Source of the DNA: Phormidesmis priestleyi Ana
Lineage (GTDB): Bacteria > Cyanobacteriota > Cyanobacteriia > Phormidesmidales > Phormidesmidaceae
Length of the DNA stretch: 64,000 nucleotides
NCBI GenBank assembly: GCA_001314865.1
Contig: LJZR01000004.1
Span: 1 to 64,000 of the forward strand
Direction: 5' to 3'
Below, in pieces: positions 11,481 to 19,764 of the stretch (position 1 is its first letter; each line of letters begins with the position of its first letter). A program made the position numbers and the translations under genes. Below the pieces are notes generated by a model. It was not told the DNA's origin. It saw only the letters and a program-made list of their open reading frames with translations, and searched no databases.

Positions 11481-12503
11481 CTATGAGAGCTTGGCTTTAG
11501 CCGGTGGCATCACGACTTTTGTAGCAAGGCCAGCAGATTTAAGGCCTTTGATGAGCCACCAGGTTGGATCAACTTCCCACTTTGTGAGGCCAGCTTTCGC
11601 CATTTTAGGAAAAGCATGGTGATTGTTGTGCCAGCCTTCGCCGTAGGTGAGTAGTGCAACCCACCATAGGTTGCGAGCATTGTCGTCACTGTCGTCAAAG
11701 TTGCGGTAGCCCCACATATGGTTAGCAGAGTTAATCAACCAAGTACAGTGCCATAGCACTACAGCCCGCACAAACACACCATAAATTACAAACGACCAGC
11801 CACCGATAGCATATAGAAGCAGTGCAACCGGCACTTGCAGCGCAAGAAAATACTTATCTAAAAAAGCATAGTAAGGATCGCGAGCGATATCGGGTGCGTA
11901 TTTGGCATAAATCTTCCGGTCAAACACTTCCGGCTTTAGGTAAAACATCCAGACCATATGGCTCCAAAGGAAGCCCTTTTTGGCCGAGTAGGGGTCTTTT
12001 TCAATATGCTCGGTAAAGGCGTGGTGCTGACGATGACCCGCTACCCAAAAGGTCGGCCCCCCTTGTAGGGCAAGAGCCCCACAAGTTGCAATCATATACT
12101 CCAGCCATTTAGGCACCTGAAAACTGCGGTGGGAGAGCATGCGATGATAGCCCATGCAAATGCCGATGCTGCCACAAACCCAATGTAAGAGGATAGCAAC
12201 GCCTAAAGCAGACCAAGAAAAGAACCAGGGAGCCAGTAAAGCAATTCCGTGAAGAGCAGCAAAAAAGCCGACAGTCGCCCAGCTAATTTTGGTGGGCTGT
12301 TGAGTGTCGCCACCATTATTTAGGCTGCTGTTTAAGCTGCTTTTAGAAACGCCTTGAGAGCGATCTGTAGAACTGTTTTGAGCAATTTTAGCAACAGGAG
12401 CAATATATTCTTTCTCTCTGTGCGCTATCTCTCTATGTTCTCTCTCTGCTGGCGATACTGCGGTAGGGCGCGTAAGGTTTTGGTGGGGTGTGCGAGTGTT
12501 CAT
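11481..12503 (-). CDS. desC: Acyl delta-9 fatty acid desaturase, DesC type
   Basis: Integral-membrane di-iron desaturase that introduces the first double bond into acyl lipids and so sets membrane fluidity. I start at ATG 12503 (MNTRTPHQN, 340 aa), which has AGGTCAG upstream; a longer TTG start at 12530 is less likely. The three histidine boxes are intact: HRMLSH (120-125), HRQHH (157-161) and HNNHH (292-296). Hydrophobic segments flank the first two boxes. The first 70 residues are a polar, Ser/Asn-rich extension longer than usual. The gene is divergent from the TetR-integrase fusion with an operator-like palindrome in between, and ends in a clear terminator. Confidence 0.9.
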   Translation of the reverse strand: MNTRTPHQNLTRPTAVSPAEREHREIAHREKEYIAPVAKIAQNSSTDRSQGVSKSSLNSSLNNGGDTQQPTKISWATVGFFAALHGIALLAPWFFSWSALGVAILLHWVCGSIGICMGYHRMLSHRSFQVPKWLEYMIATCGALALQGGPTFWVAGHRQHHAFTEHIEKDPYSAKKGFLWSHMVWMFYLKPEVFDRKIYAKYAPDIARDPYYAFLDKYFLALQVPVALLLYAIGGWSFVIYGVFVRAVVLWHCTWLINSANHMWGYRNFDDSDDNARNLWWVALLTYGEGWHNNHHAFPKMAKAGLTKWEVDPTWWLIKGLKSAGLATKVVMPPAKAKLS

Positions 12504-12756
12504 TTTCTGACCTTTGAACTTCCTTTTCAAATTTTCTTGAAACTCTTTTGGACGAGTGCCTGCCGCCTGAGTTAAGCTATTGCAAGTACCGCTTACATTT
12601 AGAAGCTTAGCTCACGTATTTAAAAAAAGCAAGTGATACTTGCAAAATATATCTTCTAAACTATTCCTTTAGGATTACTATCCCTATTTCGCCCCTTCGA
12701 GCAGCCAAGGTTCTGCGATCGCACCCCTTCTTTTTCTCATCCTTTTAACGGTAAAA
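12504..12756. promoter_or_regulatory. Divergent promoter region of desaturase and TetR-fusion genes
   Basis: The interval holds a perfect inverted repeat, gcaagt-gat-acttgc (12629-12643), and a related imperfect copy, gcaagt-acc-gcttac (12582-12596), 47 bp apart. The size and symmetry fit TetR-family operators, and the TetR gene starts 113 bp away. A/T-rich sequence on both sides could hold the two promoters. The binding role is inferred. Confidence 0.6.
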
Positions 12757-13980
12757 ATGTCCAATAAAAAAATGTCAAGCCGAGAGCGAATAGTAGGATC
12801 AGCGCTTTCCCTGTTTGCGCAACAAGGCATTACGGCCACCACCACCAAGCAAATTGCCGAACAGGCCGACGTTAATGAGGTGACTTTATTTCGCCAGTTT
12901 GGCAGCAAGCAGGGCTTGCTTTTAGCCGTGCTGAAGGAAGCACCCATTTTAGAAAAAATGCAAGTGGCACTCGCTAGTATTTCGGGCGCAAACGATCCGC
13001 TGGCCGCCTATGGGGCTTCAGGGTTGGATTTATTAGGGCGAGTGCCAGAGCTGGTGCGATCGCTCATTGGTGAAGCCGGTCAGTCACCGCCCGAAAATTT
13101 GCAAGCGCTAGGGCAGGCCGCTCGTCAGGCCAATCAGCAAACGGTTGCCTACTTACTCGGCGCGCAAATACAATTTTCACCGGGTCTTTCGGTAGAGGCC
13201 GCAGCAAGCCTTTTGAATACGCTGATATTGGGCCGTGCAGTCATCGAATCCACGAGTCAGGGCAATCAAGATAGCGGCCTGTGGCAAAGTCGGGAGGATT
13301 TTTTGGCGGCGGGGAATGCGCTGTTTTTGGCCGCAGAAGAAGGTTTAGCAGCGCCCAACACGAGTGAACACCAGGATAAAACAGCTGTTGTCGTCGCTGA
13401 CCTACCAGTAGACATGGTGCGATCCCTCTTTCAAAAAGCCAGAAGGCTAGGGGCTCAAGAATATGCGCTGGTCTATGTTTTGTTTGGCGCAGGGCTGCGG
13501 GTTAATGAGGTGGCAGGATTGCTGCGATCGCAATCCTTAAGTAGTAAAAATCAGCACCTGCTGACCATTACCGGCGCGTCACCTCGGCAAGTCCCGCTCA
13601 ATCGGTGGATTCTGGGCAACCGCTACGGCACTTATTCCAAAAATCCGCTCACGCAATGGCTAAAAAGCCGTCAGGATGACCAGCTAGCCGTCTTTATTGA
13701 CCCTGCCGGTCAACCCTTGGGCGAAGCAGGCATCATAGCCCTGTGGAAAGCAATTACCGCTGAGAACGAAGCTGAAATCATCACCTACATTGGCTCACCG
13801 GCTACGCCCTTTCACGCTCGCCAAACCTGGTGCATTGAGCTTTTGATCAAAGGCATCAGCCTAGAGCATTTGAGCATTCTATCCGGCATGAGTCTGCCAG
13901 AACTAGACGCTTATGCCCGCCGAGCCAAAGAAAAAGCAGCCCTCGAACAGGCTTTAGCTATCGATCAAAAAAACACCTAA
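12757..13980 (+). CDS. TetR-type regulator fused to degenerate tyrosine-recombinase domain
   Basis: 407 aa, about twice the length of an ordinary TetR protein. Residues 8-60 are a TetR helix-turn-helix (RERIVGSALSLFAQQGITATTTKQIAE...VTLFRQFGSKQGLL), followed by a helical ligand-type region to about 200. From about 225 the protein resembles a phage-integrase catalytic domain: FGAGLRVNEVAGL keeps the first Arg (248), then a PRQVPL strand, HARQTW with Arg 355, a KGISLEHLSILSGM segment and a final Tyr 386. The HxxR His and the LGH His are replaced (Phe and Met), so strand cleavage is doubtful. It is divergent from desC, like the TetR-family DesT beside desaturase genes in Pseudomonas; regulation of desC is inferred. 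A second Met at codon 6 is possible. Confidence 0.8.
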   Translation: MSNKKMSSRERIVGSALSLFAQQGITATTTKQIAEQADVNEVTLFRQFGSKQGLLLAVLKEAPILEKMQVALASISGANDPLAAYGASGLDLLGRVPELVRSLIGEAGQSPPENLQALGQAARQANQQTVAYLLGAQIQFSPGLSVEAAASLLNTLILGRAVIESTSQGNQDSGLWQSREDFLAAGNALFLAAEEGLAAPNTSEHQDKTAVVVADLPVDMVRSLFQKARRLGAQEYALVYVLFGAGLRVNEVAGLLRSQSLSSKNQHLLTITGASPRQVPLNRWILGNRYGTYSKNPLTQWLKSRQDDQLAVFIDPAGQPLGEAGIIALWKAITAENEAEIITYIGSPATPFHARQTWCIELLIKGISLEHLSILSGMSLPELDAYARRAKEKAALEQALAIDQKNT

Positions 13981-14025: not shown

Positions 14026-17000
14026 TCAACAAGTCTCTTCTATCGGCAACGTAATTACAAACTCTGTCCCTACGCCTACCTCAGAACTCACAGTCAATGT
14101 ACCGTTATGTTGTGCCGTCACAATGTCATAAGAAATCGCCAGCCCTAAGCCAGTGCCCTTCCCAACCGGCTTAGTCGTAAACAAATGATCAAAAACGCGG
14201 GCTTTTACCTCCTCGGTCATACCAGGGCCGTTATCTGCGATCGCAATCTGCACCGTCTGCGCATCCACCAGCGCAGTCGTAATCGTAATCACACCCGAAC
14301 TCAGAGGCTGAGCGGTAGCAGCAGCTTCTGCTGACATAGCTGGCGCAGTCTCAACATGCTCATCAATCGCTTCAATCGCGTTGGCAATTAGGTTCATAAA
14401 CACCTGATTAAGCTGTCCGGCAAAGCAACATACCTCAGGCAGATTGGCGTAGTTTTTAACAACCTGAATGGGTAAATGCTGAGGTCCTGATAAAAGACGA
14501 TGCTGCAAAATCAGCAGCGTACTGTCTAGCCCCTCGTGAATATCAAACGCAGTTTTGTACGCTTTATCAGCCCGCGAAAATGTTCGCAAGCTCGTACTAA
14601 TATCTTGAATACGACTAATACCAAAGGTCATAGAATGCAAAAGGTTCGGCAAATCTTCTCGAATAAATTCAAGATTAATCTCTTCTATTTCTTCTAAAAT
14701 AGTTTCTCTAGGCTCATTGTCTATCACCATATCCAACAGATAAAACAAATCTTTCACATAACTAAGCGCGGGTTGAAGATTTCCCTTCAAAAAATTCACC
14801 GGATTGTTGATTTCATGGGCAACCCCTGCAACCAAGTTGCCTAGTGCTGACATTTTTTCACTCTGTACCAGCTGCATATGAGAAGTTTGCAGTTCTGCCA
14901 ACGCTCGCTGAGCCTGATGGTAGAGCCTTGCATTCTCTAATGAAATAGCCGCTTGCGTACAAATCAAGTTCAGCACTTCCACCCGGTGATCGGTAAACGC
15001 GCCAATCGTCAGATTATTCTCTAAATACAAAATGGCAATGAGCTTACCTTGATTAAGCAGGGGCGCGCATAAAACACTCTTAGGACGATGACGCAACACA
15101 TAAGGATCTACCGTCAGCGTAGCGTGAACGGCAGCATTAAAAATAACCGCAGGCTCACCAGTATGCCGAACCTGATTCACCAACGACACAGGCAACAGTT
15201 CACCCGGCTTTAGCGCTTTCGATTGCAGTAAAATAGGCGGCCCACTCAAATCGCAAAAGGCTTCAATCACCCACTGTTTTTCCGCTTGGGCCTCTTCTTT
15301 CGGCATAATTAGCACACACTTATCAGCGCCCGCATTTTGAATCACCGCATCTAAAAGGGCCGCCAACAGTTTTTCTAACTCAATTTCGCTAGAGAGAATT
15401 TGAGCCGTGTTTCTCAGCGTCGTTAGATCAATCACCTCTGAAATACCTGCGTTACTTGTGGTTATCGACAGGTTATTGGCATAAGCCAAAATAGTGTCGG
15501 TAGAGGAGAGATTCTGTTGTTTTTTTCGTAGGGCAGGTTCTAGCAACAGAGCATAGCGCGATTCGAGATCGGCTACTTTAGCACGAGCCCCCCACCGGCC
15601 ATAGGCATAGTAAGCATCTAGCATGTAGCTTTGAGCAATGCGGCCCTTGCCCCACAGCAAATAAAATTGAGCAGCGAGTTCGCAGGCGATCGCTTCTTCT
15701 TGAACAAATCCACTAGCAGTTGCCAGCGCGATCGCCTGATCATAATGATTAACCGCCTCTGCCTTATTACTCGTTAAGCGACAGCGCTCCGCTTCAACCA
15801 AATGCCAGCGATGCAGATGGTTCTCAGGCGATAGCCGAGCCCAGGTTCTCATTTTTTCCTGATTAACCACGACTCGCGACATCTGGTTCTGGGCATCATC
15901 TGCGATCGCCAAGCAAGCAAGCGAGTCGTAAAAAAACAAAGCTGGCAACCACTGAGAACCCATGATGCCCTGCAAGTATTTCAGCGAATCGTCAAAATTC
16001 TTTTGAGCCTCTAGCGGCTTTGCAAATAAATAAGCCAATATCCCTTGGTTAATATGCAAATAGGCCAGCCCCATCATATCGTTGGCCGCTAGGTGAATAG
16101 GCCGCATTGTCGTCTGCCGATAGGCCTCGCCCTCTAACTGAGTCGGCGTAGCCCCCTGACCCAACAGGTTAAGCACCACCTGCTGATAAATATCCAAGTA
16201 GTTAAAAGCCGCATCCTGATGGAGCCTACTCACGCTGTTGCGATCGCGTGCTAAGGTGTGAGTCAACTTTTCCAAATTTTGTCCAGCTAAATAAGCATAA
16301 TGGCACCGCCCAGAAATGCTCCAGGCAGCATACTCAATATCCCCGCTCTCCAAAGCAACTTGATAGTTCTCCTTGAGCGGGCGCAAAGAATCTTTAATAT
16401 GCGTTCTCCAGGGATAAATGAGAGAATGTACCAAAGCAACCACACGGGTTTGAATCTCTCTGGCCGGAATTTTCTCCAGCAGTTTTAAAGCCAAATTTCC
16501 CATTTTGTAGCCCTGATGAATATCCTCACAAGGCCCACATAAAATAGCGCCATACCACCCATACAAAAAAGCCGACAGCGGGCTGTTGCCAAATTTTAGA
16601 CAGCGGTCAATACCCATGCATACCAGCAGAGGCAACACTTCAGGATGAGCGATATAGGCCGCTGACACCGCTTTAGTAAGCAAGCGAATAATGATTAAAG
16701 ATTCAGGATCTTCCATTTCCGGCAGATCTATCAAAGTTTCGATAGGCTGATAGCTGAGCTGTACGGCAATCCCTCTGAGCGCGACTTGAACCTCGGCAGG
16801 CTCAGGCTGACGGGGGACAAATACACCCAACTGAGCCAGTAGCTGAAGCGTAATCTCTATCCCGTGAAGAAACTGATTTTGAGCAATCGTAGCCTGAATC
16901 TGAGTTTCGTAAGCAGATGTTTTATCCAACAGAGTATTAGCCTGCTGGAGCACCTGATCAATAGACTGTTGCATAGCAACCAGCTGGCCGGTGAGGTAGG

Positions 17001-19764
17001 CAATTTCAGCGGTTTCGTGATGCATTTTGAGCGTGAGGTCATAGTGAGTTTGCCAGCTGTTGGCAGGCAACAGGCGAATGCCCACCGTCAAATACTCAAA
17101 TGCGCTGGTATAGGCCGTGGCAGCTTTGGCTCTTTGCGCAGCGCTAAAGTTTAGAGTAATTAAGCGATCGCGCTCCGCGTCACTCTCTATCAGCTCAATA
17201 GCCTGATTCAAGTGGTTCACAATATCGAAAAGCCTGTTTTCACCGCCATTTTCACTATCGTTTTCACCGCCGCTTTCACCGCCGCTTTCACCACGCTCTT
17301 GATAGCTTTGTTGGGCTAGCCGCTGACCAATCACCCGATGGGCAGCAGCCTGTTGGCCCGCATCTATCAGCCCGTAAGCAGCCTGCTGAATTCGGTCATG
17401 AACAAACCGATAGTGAGGATTAATCGCTTCTAAGGTGGCCGAGTTGGTGAGGGTCAAAGATTGGCAGCAATGGCGAAGCCCTTCCGTAGGCACATCGCCG
17501 ACCTGTACAATCAAGCCCTCTTGCAGCGCACATCCCAAATCTGTAATGATCGCCTCTATTGGCCTTTCAGTCACAACCATCAGCGTCGCCAAATCGAACT
17601 GCGCACCAATACAAGCTGCTGTTCGCAAAACTGCTTGAGTGCTGGCCGTCAGTTTCTGTAAGCGCTGATGCATCAGCGTTTGCACATTGTCACTGCCAAG
17701 GAAAATAGCCTTAATTAGAGCCAAGTCATACTGCCAATGCCGGGCGTTTTCATCAAAGGTAATTTTGTCTTCGGCCTGAAGCGCGATTAAATACTGGGCT
17801 GAAAAGAACGGATTGCCATGGGTTTTTTGATAGATAAATTCAGCCAGCGGTTGAGCAAAGCTGAGCGTACTCCGCAGCGTATCGGCAACCAACTGGTTAA
17901 CATCTGGCAAGCTTAGAGGCGAAAGTACCAACAGATTAACGTTGGCGCTGCGATCAAGCATCACCGCCGACTTCGTCTTTTCATTTTCTCTTTTATTTTC
18001 TCTTTCATTTTCTCTTTCAGATTCTGTTTCAGGTTCTGTTTCAGGCTCTCTTTCTGCTAATATCTCCCGTTGAGCCTGTTGATTCATCTGTTGTTTAGCA
18101 CTATGGGCAGCACGAATATCCTCTAGCGTTAGCATCAATGGATGGCTATCGCAGACTTCGTTATCGCGGTAAGCGCCGATAATCAGCAGGTGACCATCAT
18201 CTTGCAACAACAGCTGTAGCAAATTAAGTGAGGCACTATCAGCCCACTGCATATCGTCTAAAAAAATCACCAACGGGTGATGGTCGTTGGTAAATACCTG
18301 CACAAACTTTTGCAGCAGCAGGTTAAAACGATTCTCGGCGGCTTGCGGACTCAGCACTGTCGCAGGCGGTTGCCGGCCCACAATCCCTTCTAGCTCAGGA
18401 ATCACCTCAATTAAAACTTGTGCATTGCGACCAAGGGCCGCCAATATTTGCTCTCGGCGCTGTTCTATCTGACTGTCGCTCTCACTTAGCAACAGTCTCA
18501 CCAGTTCACGAAAAGCTCGAATAAATGCCGATAGAGATACGTTCCGCTGCAACTGGTCGTACTTGCCATTAATAAAATAGCCCCGCTGACAGGTAATTGG
18601 CTTTTGAACCTCATTAACAATCGCTGTTTTGCCAGCACCAGAACTACCGGCAATCAACATTAGCTCTGTGTTGCCCTGGCTCACTCGATGAAAAGCTGCC
18701 AGCAGTTGAGTCACTTCTTGCTGGCGACCATACAGTTTTTCGGGGAGTAAAAAGTAATCGCTCACATCCCGTTGACCCAGGGTAAACGACTTAATCTCGC
18801 CCGTCGCTTTAAGCTGATCTAAGCATTCTGTGAGGTCATGTTTAAGGCCAAACGCGCTTTGATAGCGATTTTCAGCATTTTTAGCCATCAGCTTTAGCAC
18901 AATGCTAGAAACCATTGCAGGCAGCGTTCCGTTGCACAGCTGAGTGGGTGGCACCGCCTGCCTAGCCAAGTGCCCATGCACCACCTCCATAGGATCATCA
19001 GCGGCAAAAGGCAGCTGACCCGTCAGAAGTTCATAGCAGGTCACACCAAAAGAATAAAAGTCGCTGCGATAGTCAATACCCCGATTCATCCGGCCAGTTT
19101 GCTCGGGAGAAAGATAGGCAATAGTCCCTTCTAGGGCGGCGAGATCTCGTGTTTCTCGCATTTCGCGAGGCAGCGCAGAAGCAATACTAAAGTCAATCAG
19201 TTTGACCCGATGGCTCTGAGGATGAATGAGAATGTTGGCCGGTTTGATATCTTTGTGGATAATGCGGGCATCAAACAAACCTTCGAGTGCTTCTGCTACT
19301 TGAATAGCAATTTGTAAAAAGAGAATAATTTCTGACAGGCTGTCACCCATTTTGGGTTTAGCACTGTGACCGCAGGCAAGATCCGGCTTCGCTGCCTTAT
19401 TTGTCCTATTTGCCTTTTCAGAGACGCTGCGATCGCTTCTTAAGATTAAAAACTGCCTCAGATCGCAGCCGCCAAAATCCTCCATGACCAAGGCGCTAGC
19501 CTTACCGCAAGGGACTAGGGCCAGGGGTTTGACAATAGTAGTCAAGTCAAGATCTTTAGCAATCGTGTATTGATTGCTAAACTGTACTAGCTCGTTAAAA
19601 CTTGGGAATTCGTCTTTTAGAAATTTGACAACAACCGGGCGCTGATCTCGCTGGCGTAATCCTCGATACACCACTGTACGAGATCCCTCGTACAGTTTTT
19701 CGCTAAAGCTGTAACCTTGTAGTTGAACAGTCTCCTTTGAAGAAGGTGTTATCGAGGCATTCAT
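14026..19764 (-). CDS. Hybrid Ser/Thr kinase - AAA ATPase - GAF - histidine kinase
   Basis: 1912 aa. Residues about 15-310 are a Hanks-type kinase (HKDIKPAN catalytic loop, DFS in place of DFG, SPEQTGRMNR activation segment). A P-loop, AGSSGAGKTA, with FLDDMQWAD, at about 400-520 marks the AAA/STAND ATPase, followed by a long helical region of roughly 700 residues. A GAF domain covers about 1440-1600. The C-terminus is a histidine kinase: VAGVAHEINNP with phospho-acceptor His 1650, an N box NLIANAIEAI and G boxes DNGPGM and GKGTGLGLA. This architecture is known in cyanobacteria (HstK-like). Two charged repeats (EPETEPETE and ESGGESGGEN) interrupt linkers. There is no membrane segment, so it is probably cytoplasmic; signal and partner are unknown. 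Confidence 0.92.
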   Translation of the reverse strand: MNASITPSSKETVQLQGYSFSEKLYEGSRTVVYRGLRQRDQRPVVVKFLKDEFPSFNELVQFSNQYTIAKDLDLTTIVKPLALVPCGKASALVMEDFGGCDLRQFLILRSDRSVSEKANRTNKAAKPDLACGHSAKPKMGDSLSEIILFLQIAIQVAEALEGLFDARIIHKDIKPANILIHPQSHRVKLIDFSIASALPREMRETRDLAALEGTIAYLSPEQTGRMNRGIDYRSDFYSFGVTCYELLTGQLPFAADDPMEVVHGHLARQAVPPTQLCNGTLPAMVSSIVLKLMAKNAENRYQSAFGLKHDLTECLDQLKATGEIKSFTLGQRDVSDYFLLPEKLYGRQQEVTQLLAAFHRVSQGNTELMLIAGSSGAGKTAIVNEVQKPITCQRGYFINGKYDQLQRNVSLSAFIRAFRELVRLLLSESDSQIEQRREQILAALGRNAQVLIEVIPELEGIVGRQPPATVLSPQAAENRFNLLLQKFVQVFTNDHHPLVIFLDDMQWADSASLNLLQLLLQDDGHLLIIGAYRDNEVCDSHPLMLTLEDIRAAHSAKQQMNQQAQREILAEREPETEPETESERENERENKRENEKTKSAVMLDRSANVNLLVLSPLSLPDVNQLVADTLRSTLSFAQPLAEFIYQKTHGNPFFSAQYLIALQAEDKITFDENARHWQYDLALIKAIFLGSDNVQTLMHQRLQKLTASTQAVLRTAACIGAQFDLATLMVVTERPIEAIITDLGCALQEGLIVQVGDVPTEGLRHCCQSLTLTNSATLEAINPHYRFVHDRIQQAAYGLIDAGQQAAAHRVIGQRLAQQSYQERGESGGESGGENDSENGGENRLFDIVNHLNQAIELIESDAERDRLITLNFSAAQRAKAATAYTSAFEYLTVGIRLLPANSWQTHYDLTLKMHHETAEIAYLTGQLVAMQQSIDQVLQQANTLLDKTSAYETQIQATIAQNQFLHGIEITLQLLAQLGVFVPRQPEPAEVQVALRGIAVQLSYQPIETLIDLPEMEDPESLIIIRLLTKAVSAAYIAHPEVLPLLVCMGIDRCLKFGNSPLSAFLYGWYGAILCGPCEDIHQGYKMGNLALKLLEKIPAREIQTRVVALVHSLIYPWRTHIKDSLRPLKENYQVALESGDIEYAAWSISGRCHYAYLAGQNLEKLTHTLARDRNSVSRLHQDAAFNYLDIYQQVVLNLLGQGATPTQLEGEAYRQTTMRPIHLAANDMMGLAYLHINQGILAYLFAKPLEAQKNFDDSLKYLQGIMGSQWLPALFFYDSLACLAIADDAQNQMSRVVVNQEKMRTWARLSPENHLHRWHLVEAERCRLTSNKAEAVNHYDQAIALATASGFVQEEAIACELAAQFYLLWGKGRIAQSYMLDAYYAYGRWGARAKVADLESRYALLLEPALRKKQQNLSSTDTILAYANNLSITTSNAGISEVIDLTTLRNTAQILSSEIELEKLLAALLDAVIQNAGADKCVLIMPKEEAQAEKQWVIEAFCDLSGPPILLQSKALKPGELLPVSLVNQVRHTGEPAVIFNAAVHATLTVDPYVLRHRPKSVLCAPLLNQGKLIAILYLENNLTIGAFTDHRVEVLNLICTQAAISLENARLYHQAQRALAELQTSHMQLVQSEKMSALGNLVAGVAHEINNPVNFLKGNLQPALSYVKDLFYLLDMVIDNEPRETILEEIEEINLEFIREDLPNLLHSMTFGISRIQDISTSLRTFSRADKAYKTAFDIHEGLDSTLLILQHRLLSGPQHLPIQVVKNYANLPEVCCFAGQLNQVFMNLIANAIEAIDEHVETAPAMSAEAAATAQPLSSGVITITTALVDAQTVQIAIADNGPGMTEEVKARVFDHLFTTKPVGKGTGLGLAISYDIVTAQHNGTLTVSSEVGVGTEFVITLPIEETC

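Follow-up and report, generated by a model that had tools for sequence, protein, structure and literature searches.

The window, i.e. the whole 64,000-nucleotide stretch of the Phormidesmis priestleyi Ana genome that was analysed, carries on its forward strand an open reading frame of 407 predicted amino acids (12757..13980, ATG start, stop codon within these coordinates), for which orthologues exist. It comprises a TetR domain with a helix-turn-helix and a TetR-type helical core (residues 1-197, 12757..13347; Pfam TetR_N, VIA-align), a flexible linker of low pLDDT which is the least conserved segment (residues 198-212, 13348..13392) and a degenerate tyrosine-recombinase catalytic-domain fold (residues 213-407, 13393..13977; Pfam Phage_integrase, AlphaFold2, XerA 5hxy), all on the forward strand. 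Divergent from it, on the reverse strand, lies a gene for a DesC2-type delta-9 acyl-lipid desaturase (11481..12530, start codon uncertain), which is the likely target of the regulator. Two palindromic operators are predicted between the genes, O1 (GCAAGTACCGCTTAC, 12582..12596, forward strand), one of a pair conserved in relatives, and O2 (GCAAGTGATACTTGC, 12629..12643, forward strand), 47 bp from O1 start to start. Directly downstream of the regulator, at 14026-19764 on the reverse strand, is a gene whose 1912-amino-acid product combines Ser/Thr kinase, ATPase-like and histidine kinase regions by NCBIfam matches.

Both halves of the regulator were matched by Pfam profiles: TetR_N at residues 13-58 (E 3.5e-14) and Phage_integrase (PF00589) at residues 218-377 (E 5e-9, 36.6 bits, above the cut-off of 27.1), the latter also when the C-terminal half was searched alone (E 1e-8). 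The TetR_N helix-turn-helix is present in all 37 members of the family alignment (A1), and 24 of the 37 reach E 0.01 for Phage_integrase as single sequences. The nearest NCBIfam recombinases are XerC and XerD (E 3e-5 and 8e-5, well below the NCBIfam cut-offs). The AlphaFold2 model of the full regulator, built with a 37-sequence alignment, showed two domains with a mean pLDDT of 90.6 and a pTM of 0.56, so that the relative placement of the domains is not fixed. The sole low-confidence linker was at residues 198-208 (pLDDT <50), and the mean top-residue frequency of the linker (0.395) gave it the lowest conservation of any segment. The C-terminal half folded alone gave a pLDDT of 94.7 and a pTM of 0.91, and aligned with XerA (5hxy) at Z 20.2 over 179 residues (rmsd 3.9); Z values with the MrpR, YopR and SroF structures were lower than with XerA (12.7-13.9). 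In VIA-align comparisons of the full-length model, residues 211-405 matched XerA 5hxy at Z 20.0 and residues 5-196 matched TetR structures at Z of about 15-16, the TetR half aligning with NemR (4yze) at Z 16.3 over 181 residues.

Profiles and predicted folds agree with the initial annotation, which had read the frame as a TetR regulator fused to a degenerate tyrosine recombinase; structure prediction gave the C-terminal half a tyrosine-recombinase fold and not a different one. The modelled protein consists of a TetR regulator and the catalytic-domain fold of a tyrosine recombinase, with a short disordered linker between the two. The N-terminal core-binding domain of tyrosine recombinases is absent, with the TetR domain in its place. 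The Xer-type recombinases (XerA, XerC, XerD, XerH) are the closest profile and structural matches of the C-terminal half, which differs from them in having neither core-binding domain nor catalytic set. The local repressors of the TetR/AcrR type (FadR, NemR, QacR) share with the regulator the helix-turn-helix, the helical core, a divergent neighbour and palindromic operators, whereas the regulator has about 200 extra residues with the recombinase fold, and two operators at near-fixed spacing.

Catalytic residues were counted in 66 aligned family members, 63 of them fused, each count covering the relatives with a residue at the column concerned. Arg248, Arg355 and Tyr386 are all present in the 407-residue copy, as the initial annotation had stated, and the histidines that it had reported missing, those of the HxxR and LGH motifs, are indeed absent, their columns holding F352 and M378 in the alignment to 4a8e, with H353 one residue off the HxxR histidine column. 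Of these three residues, given there under fold-specific motifs, Tyr386, the nucleophilic tyrosine, is conserved (60/64 members) and the two arginines are not: Arg I is kept in 5/63 and Arg II in 12/63, so Arg248 and Arg355 are no family feature. The third catalytic position holds His in 0/63 and Trp in 13/63. In a set of 37 sequences the HxxR histidine is retained once, and E251, the Glu that follows Arg I, 36 times. The catalytic set of tyrosine recombinases (PF00589), Arg I, His II, Arg II and His/Trp III, is thus not retained across the family. Judged from the alignment, the C-terminal domain would be a tyrosine-recombinase fold unable to cut DNA, its catalytic residues having been lost family-wide.

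The C-terminal half has near-invariant positions of other kinds, R277, N282, I285, G287, R289, Y290, G291, N296, P297 and L298, and further R305, W330, Gln at 353, W358, A395, A399 and D403. The domain is weakly basic, with a mean net charge of +2.1 (range -5 to 8, 72 members). Over 48 overlapping, non-independent pairs the TetR half had a median dN/dS of 0.053 and the recombinase half one of 0.145; by these ratios the recombinase half is under purifying selection, less constrained than the TetR half.

The desaturase that had been noticed beside the regulator was confirmed as such by its FA_desaturase match (E 7.6e-24) and its histidine boxes, and is of the DesC2-type delta-9 class. A homologue of it adjoins the regulator in 19 of 20 loci with wide flanks examined, the sole exception (L049) being a distant TetR and not an orthologue. 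The histidine boxes closely match the delta9-1 class of PMC2593844, for which that paper presumes an action at sn-2 as for Nostoc DesC2; the placement at sn-2 also draws on PMC4390868. The boxes fit the same sn-2 clade as DesC2 of Nostoc sp. 36. The delta9-1 pattern, loosened for this count, was fitted by 69 of 77 third-box contexts (redundant loci among them) and the delta9-2 pattern by none. The P. priestleyi genome has 12 matches to FA_desaturase, so other desaturase genes exist, and no operator was found at the two paralogues that were examined. Ahead of the region that relatives conserve, the desaturase frame (11481-12530, reverse strand) carries a long and variable N-terminal extension of ~75 residues.

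The fusion is no one-off: it recurs in many cyanobacterial genera, and the survey proposed initially found it there beside the same type of desaturase. With the C-domain profile the fused gene was found in 41 of 386 sampled genomes of the phylum, one copy each, when matches at E 8e-61 or better were counted (open frames of 399-496 amino acids, two of the 41 with one stop counted inside the match); five matches at E 1e-6 to 1e-10, to ordinary recombinase-like frames of 294-311 amino acids, were left out. At this threshold no C-domain without a TetR half occurred among the 386 genomes. The 44 strong places found with the TetR-half profile are the same 41 fused genes and three TetR-only genes (G057, G038 and G376), so the TetR half is rarely alone. 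Matches at E 0.001 and below were obtained for 54 of 58 relatives, many of the weaker ones being TetR-only paralogues, and a scan of genome contigs gave one relative (L032). A viral origin was considered and dropped, as no relative of the A1 family appeared in viral contigs searched with two peptide patterns. A frameshift interrupts the regulator gene in the metagenome assemblies of Phormidesmis sp. RL_2_1 (L032/L042) and G483 (L225), which may be error or real decay. In a rooted tree of the TetR half that included three TetR-only sequences, G057 was nested among the fused members with a support of 0.91, and the pair from genus g18 was basal, with weak deep nodes (0.18 and 0.39). The fusion may be ancestral and then lost in the family of g18, since G046 and G440 are fused.

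The operator consensus is the palindrome GCAAGTNNN(A/G)CTT(G/A)C, found in two copies between regulator and desaturase. With up to 3 mismatches allowed, at least two copies of GCAAGTNNNACTTGC were present in 66 of 67 non-redundant divergent regions (0.34 of 67 in shuffled sequences), after removal of one locus that is not divergent (L034), loci with a desaturase match starting after residue 10, and duplicates. One of these 66 regions is TetR-only (G057), as is the single-operator region (G038). Two operators were also present in 8/8 further fused loci, and by the same test in 0/7 paralogous TetR outgroups (L168-L172, L181 and L182). The start-to-start spacing was 46 bp in 17 regions, 47 bp in 28, 48 bp in 6, 49 bp in 5, 50 bp in 1 and 52 bp in 4, with 60, 70, 72, 84 and 85 bp in one region each; no helical phasing was seen over spacings of 46-53 bp and these rarer ones.

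Searched for without any protein, the pair pattern matched 36 of 145 genomes of the class, and the control matched none. Twenty-one of the 36 genomes were new, and 19 of these have the fused gene beside the pair; the other two are G446 and the TetR-only, frameshifted G483. Contig C34 of G446 holds the desaturase with the pair next to it, while the fused gene lies on C87 with no operator nearby, and in G046 and G440 the regulator is co-directional with and upstream of the desaturase, the pair lying between the regulator end and the desaturase start. These arrangements indicate that the operator pair follows the desaturase and not the regulator gene.

When 105 regions, each the 720 bp upstream of a desaturase, were counted uniformly with at most 2 mismatches allowed, at least two operators were found in 91 of 93 fused loci, 19 of which had been found by the operator pattern and are hence biased towards having the pair; in the remaining two (L017 and L082) the second operator has 3 mismatches. 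Among nine TetR-only orthologues, three (G057, G476, G483) have two operators and six, all of genus g18, have one. The idea that the pair strictly marks the recombinase domain was accordingly rejected. The link between fusion and two operators supports a bridging role of this domain without proving it, since a single lineage underlies the link and both operators persist in G057, G476 and G483, which lack the domain.

Third operator matches in the uniform count sit in the regulator coding sequence, and operator-like palindromes are seen there in the window (12905-12919 and 12960-12974) and in many relatives. That at 12905-12919 may be an auxiliary operator or, as it lies on conserved codons, a coding coincidence. 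Among the matches listed for the P. priestleyi genome, O1 and O2 are the only two perfect sites. A wider regulon found little backing: matches with at most one mismatch numbered 65+48 in this genome and 43+45 for the reversed control, and perfect-pattern matches in 16 genomes numbered 106 against 91 in the control, leaving little beyond the locus. An excess over control was seen in G352 (17 vs 1) and G057 (12 vs 5), where several matches are the same variant repeated and may be a genome-specific repeat.

The operators bracket a conserved promoter element directed at the desaturase. In the window the predicted -35 hexamer, TTGCTT (12627..12632, reverse strand, read from the sequence), overlaps O2, and the predicted -10 hexamer, TAAGCT (12604..12609, reverse strand), without an extended TG, is 17 bp from it and between the operators. 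In the family, TTGC of O2 provides the predicted -35, and an extended -10, TGnTA, follows 16-18 bp on, aimed at the desaturase. TGnTA occurs in this direction in 51 of the 61 regions, where shuffled sequences gave a mean of 1.2 and a maximum of 6, and in the opposite direction in 0 of 61. The score for the -10 hexamer TATAAT alone is modest, with at least 4 matches in 32 of 61 regions against a mean of 18 and a maximum of 27 in shuffles. Examined position by position, the DNA between the operators has no third high-information motif beyond the -10. A TA(C/T)(A/G)GT box just left of O1, present in 29 of 66 regions (shuffle mean 1.5), is possibly the regulator's own -10.

Beyond the observed gene pairing, paired operators, promoter position, catalytic loss and purifying selection and the predicted domain fold, we infer binding, repression, autoregulation, a ligand and, above all, a role for the recombinase domain. 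The protein is likely to be a local regulator of membrane-lipid desaturation: its TetR half would repress the desaturase by way of the two operators, and the dead recombinase domain would be an accessory module. A dimer of TetR halves would bind each of the two palindromes around the promoter, O2 overlapping the -35 box and O1 lying at about the transcription start of the desaturase, and would block RNA polymerase; occupancy of O1 would probably also repress the regulator's own divergent promoter, and the regulator would be released by a ligand bound in the pocket of the TetR half, perhaps a fatty acid, acyl-ACP or a membrane-stress signal. The TetR half could also be an activator instead of a repressor. 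The anatomy is accounted for by repression from two operators even if the recombinase domain has no part in it; this domain is dispensable in evolution, as G057, G476 and G483 have two operators and are TetR-only; the operator spacing may reflect promoter geometry alone.

For the recombinase domain an accessory role as bridge or clamp is our best guess: the domains most likely would join the dimer on O1 to that on O2, clamp the intervening promoter DNA, or do both, through the surfaces with which recombinases contact one another and embrace DNA during synapsis. A more specific form of this proposal is tentative and, on balance, doubtful. It would have four tethered dead recombinase domains join and clamp the ~31-33 bp of promoter DNA between the operators, which is about the length of a recombinase core site, a synapse-derived switch that became a repression complex on the DesC2 promoter and was long kept in cyanobacterial evolution.

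The domain might instead be a second sequence-specific reader of DNA with a promoter site of its own. Precedent for the fold exists in MrpR (YopR) of the Bacillus prophage SPbeta, described in PMC10516654 as a tyrosine-recombinase-fold repressor without recombinase activity; MrpR/YopR and SroF of phi3T, in which this fold likewise serves as a repressor, are among the structural matches of the C-terminal half, and basic residues (R277, R289, R305, R389) are conserved. That paper gives Arg I, His II, Arg II and His III of MrpR as replaced, Tyr and Glu as kept, and a Lys as kept at the place of the catalytic Lys. The loss pattern is that of the fused family, with the same residues lost and Glu and Tyr kept, and by sequence and predicted fold the family has the dead recombinase fold of MrpR/SroF-like repressors; MrpR differs, as described there, in being a phage protein with its own core-binding domain and no TetR part. 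Against such a reader, which we consider improbable, the -10 element alone has high information between the operators and the net charge of the domain is about +2. The initial annotation had proposed a recombinase domain reused in a transcription factor as a second DNA-binding or looping module. Its control role gains from the two conserved operators on the desaturase promoter; DNA binding or looping by the domain itself does not, given that no third motif was found and that three TetR-only genomes keep the pair.

Equally improbable in our estimate is a domain which has no DNA role and senses a signal or binds a partner, passing this to the TetR half, a reading with which the weak charge and the conserved non-catalytic stretches (I-x-G-x-R-Y-G, N-P-L, W330, W358 and the C-terminal helix) are consistent. 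That the domain is the decaying, functionless relic of an insertion is very unlikely: its dN/dS exceeds the TetR-half value almost threefold and some orthologues lack it, but the ratio is still 0.145, 16 positions are invariant in 36 sequences and the domain is present in many genera. A working recombinase that inverts the promoter between the two palindromes as a phase switch, suggested by inverted-repeat sites flanking a promoter beside a recombinase-like gene, was rejected as extremely unlikely on account of the lost catalytic residues and the promoter element never being reversed (0/61), and TetR-only genomes keep the operator pair.

The regulator, beside a desaturase gene through which the fluidity of the cell membranes is adjusted, is a candidate membrane-fluidity switch of cyanobacteria, and operator, target gene and promoter are all predicted. 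Phages are known to have repressors built from dead tyrosine recombinases, such as MrpR, and here the fold has been conserved within a metabolic regulator of the chromosome, for which natural TetR-only orthologues offer a ready comparison of what the extra domain contributes. A search of the open-access literature, with subscription papers mostly outside its range, found no paper on a TetR-recombinase fusion or on the operator, and none on a regulator of DesC2-type delta-9 desaturases was found in the open-access literature searched.

Among 72,556 plasmid records the fused gene had one match, on pP742403 of Gloeothece citriformis PCC 7424, where the protein is annotated merely as 'TetR/AcrR family transcriptional regulator'. 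This copy adjoins a fatty acid desaturase and has two operators 47 bp apart. The mobilizable plasmid carries desaturase and fused regulator together (L232, 14897-24072), and genes for an orange-carotenoid-protein N-domain and a light-harvesting-like protein adjoin the pair.
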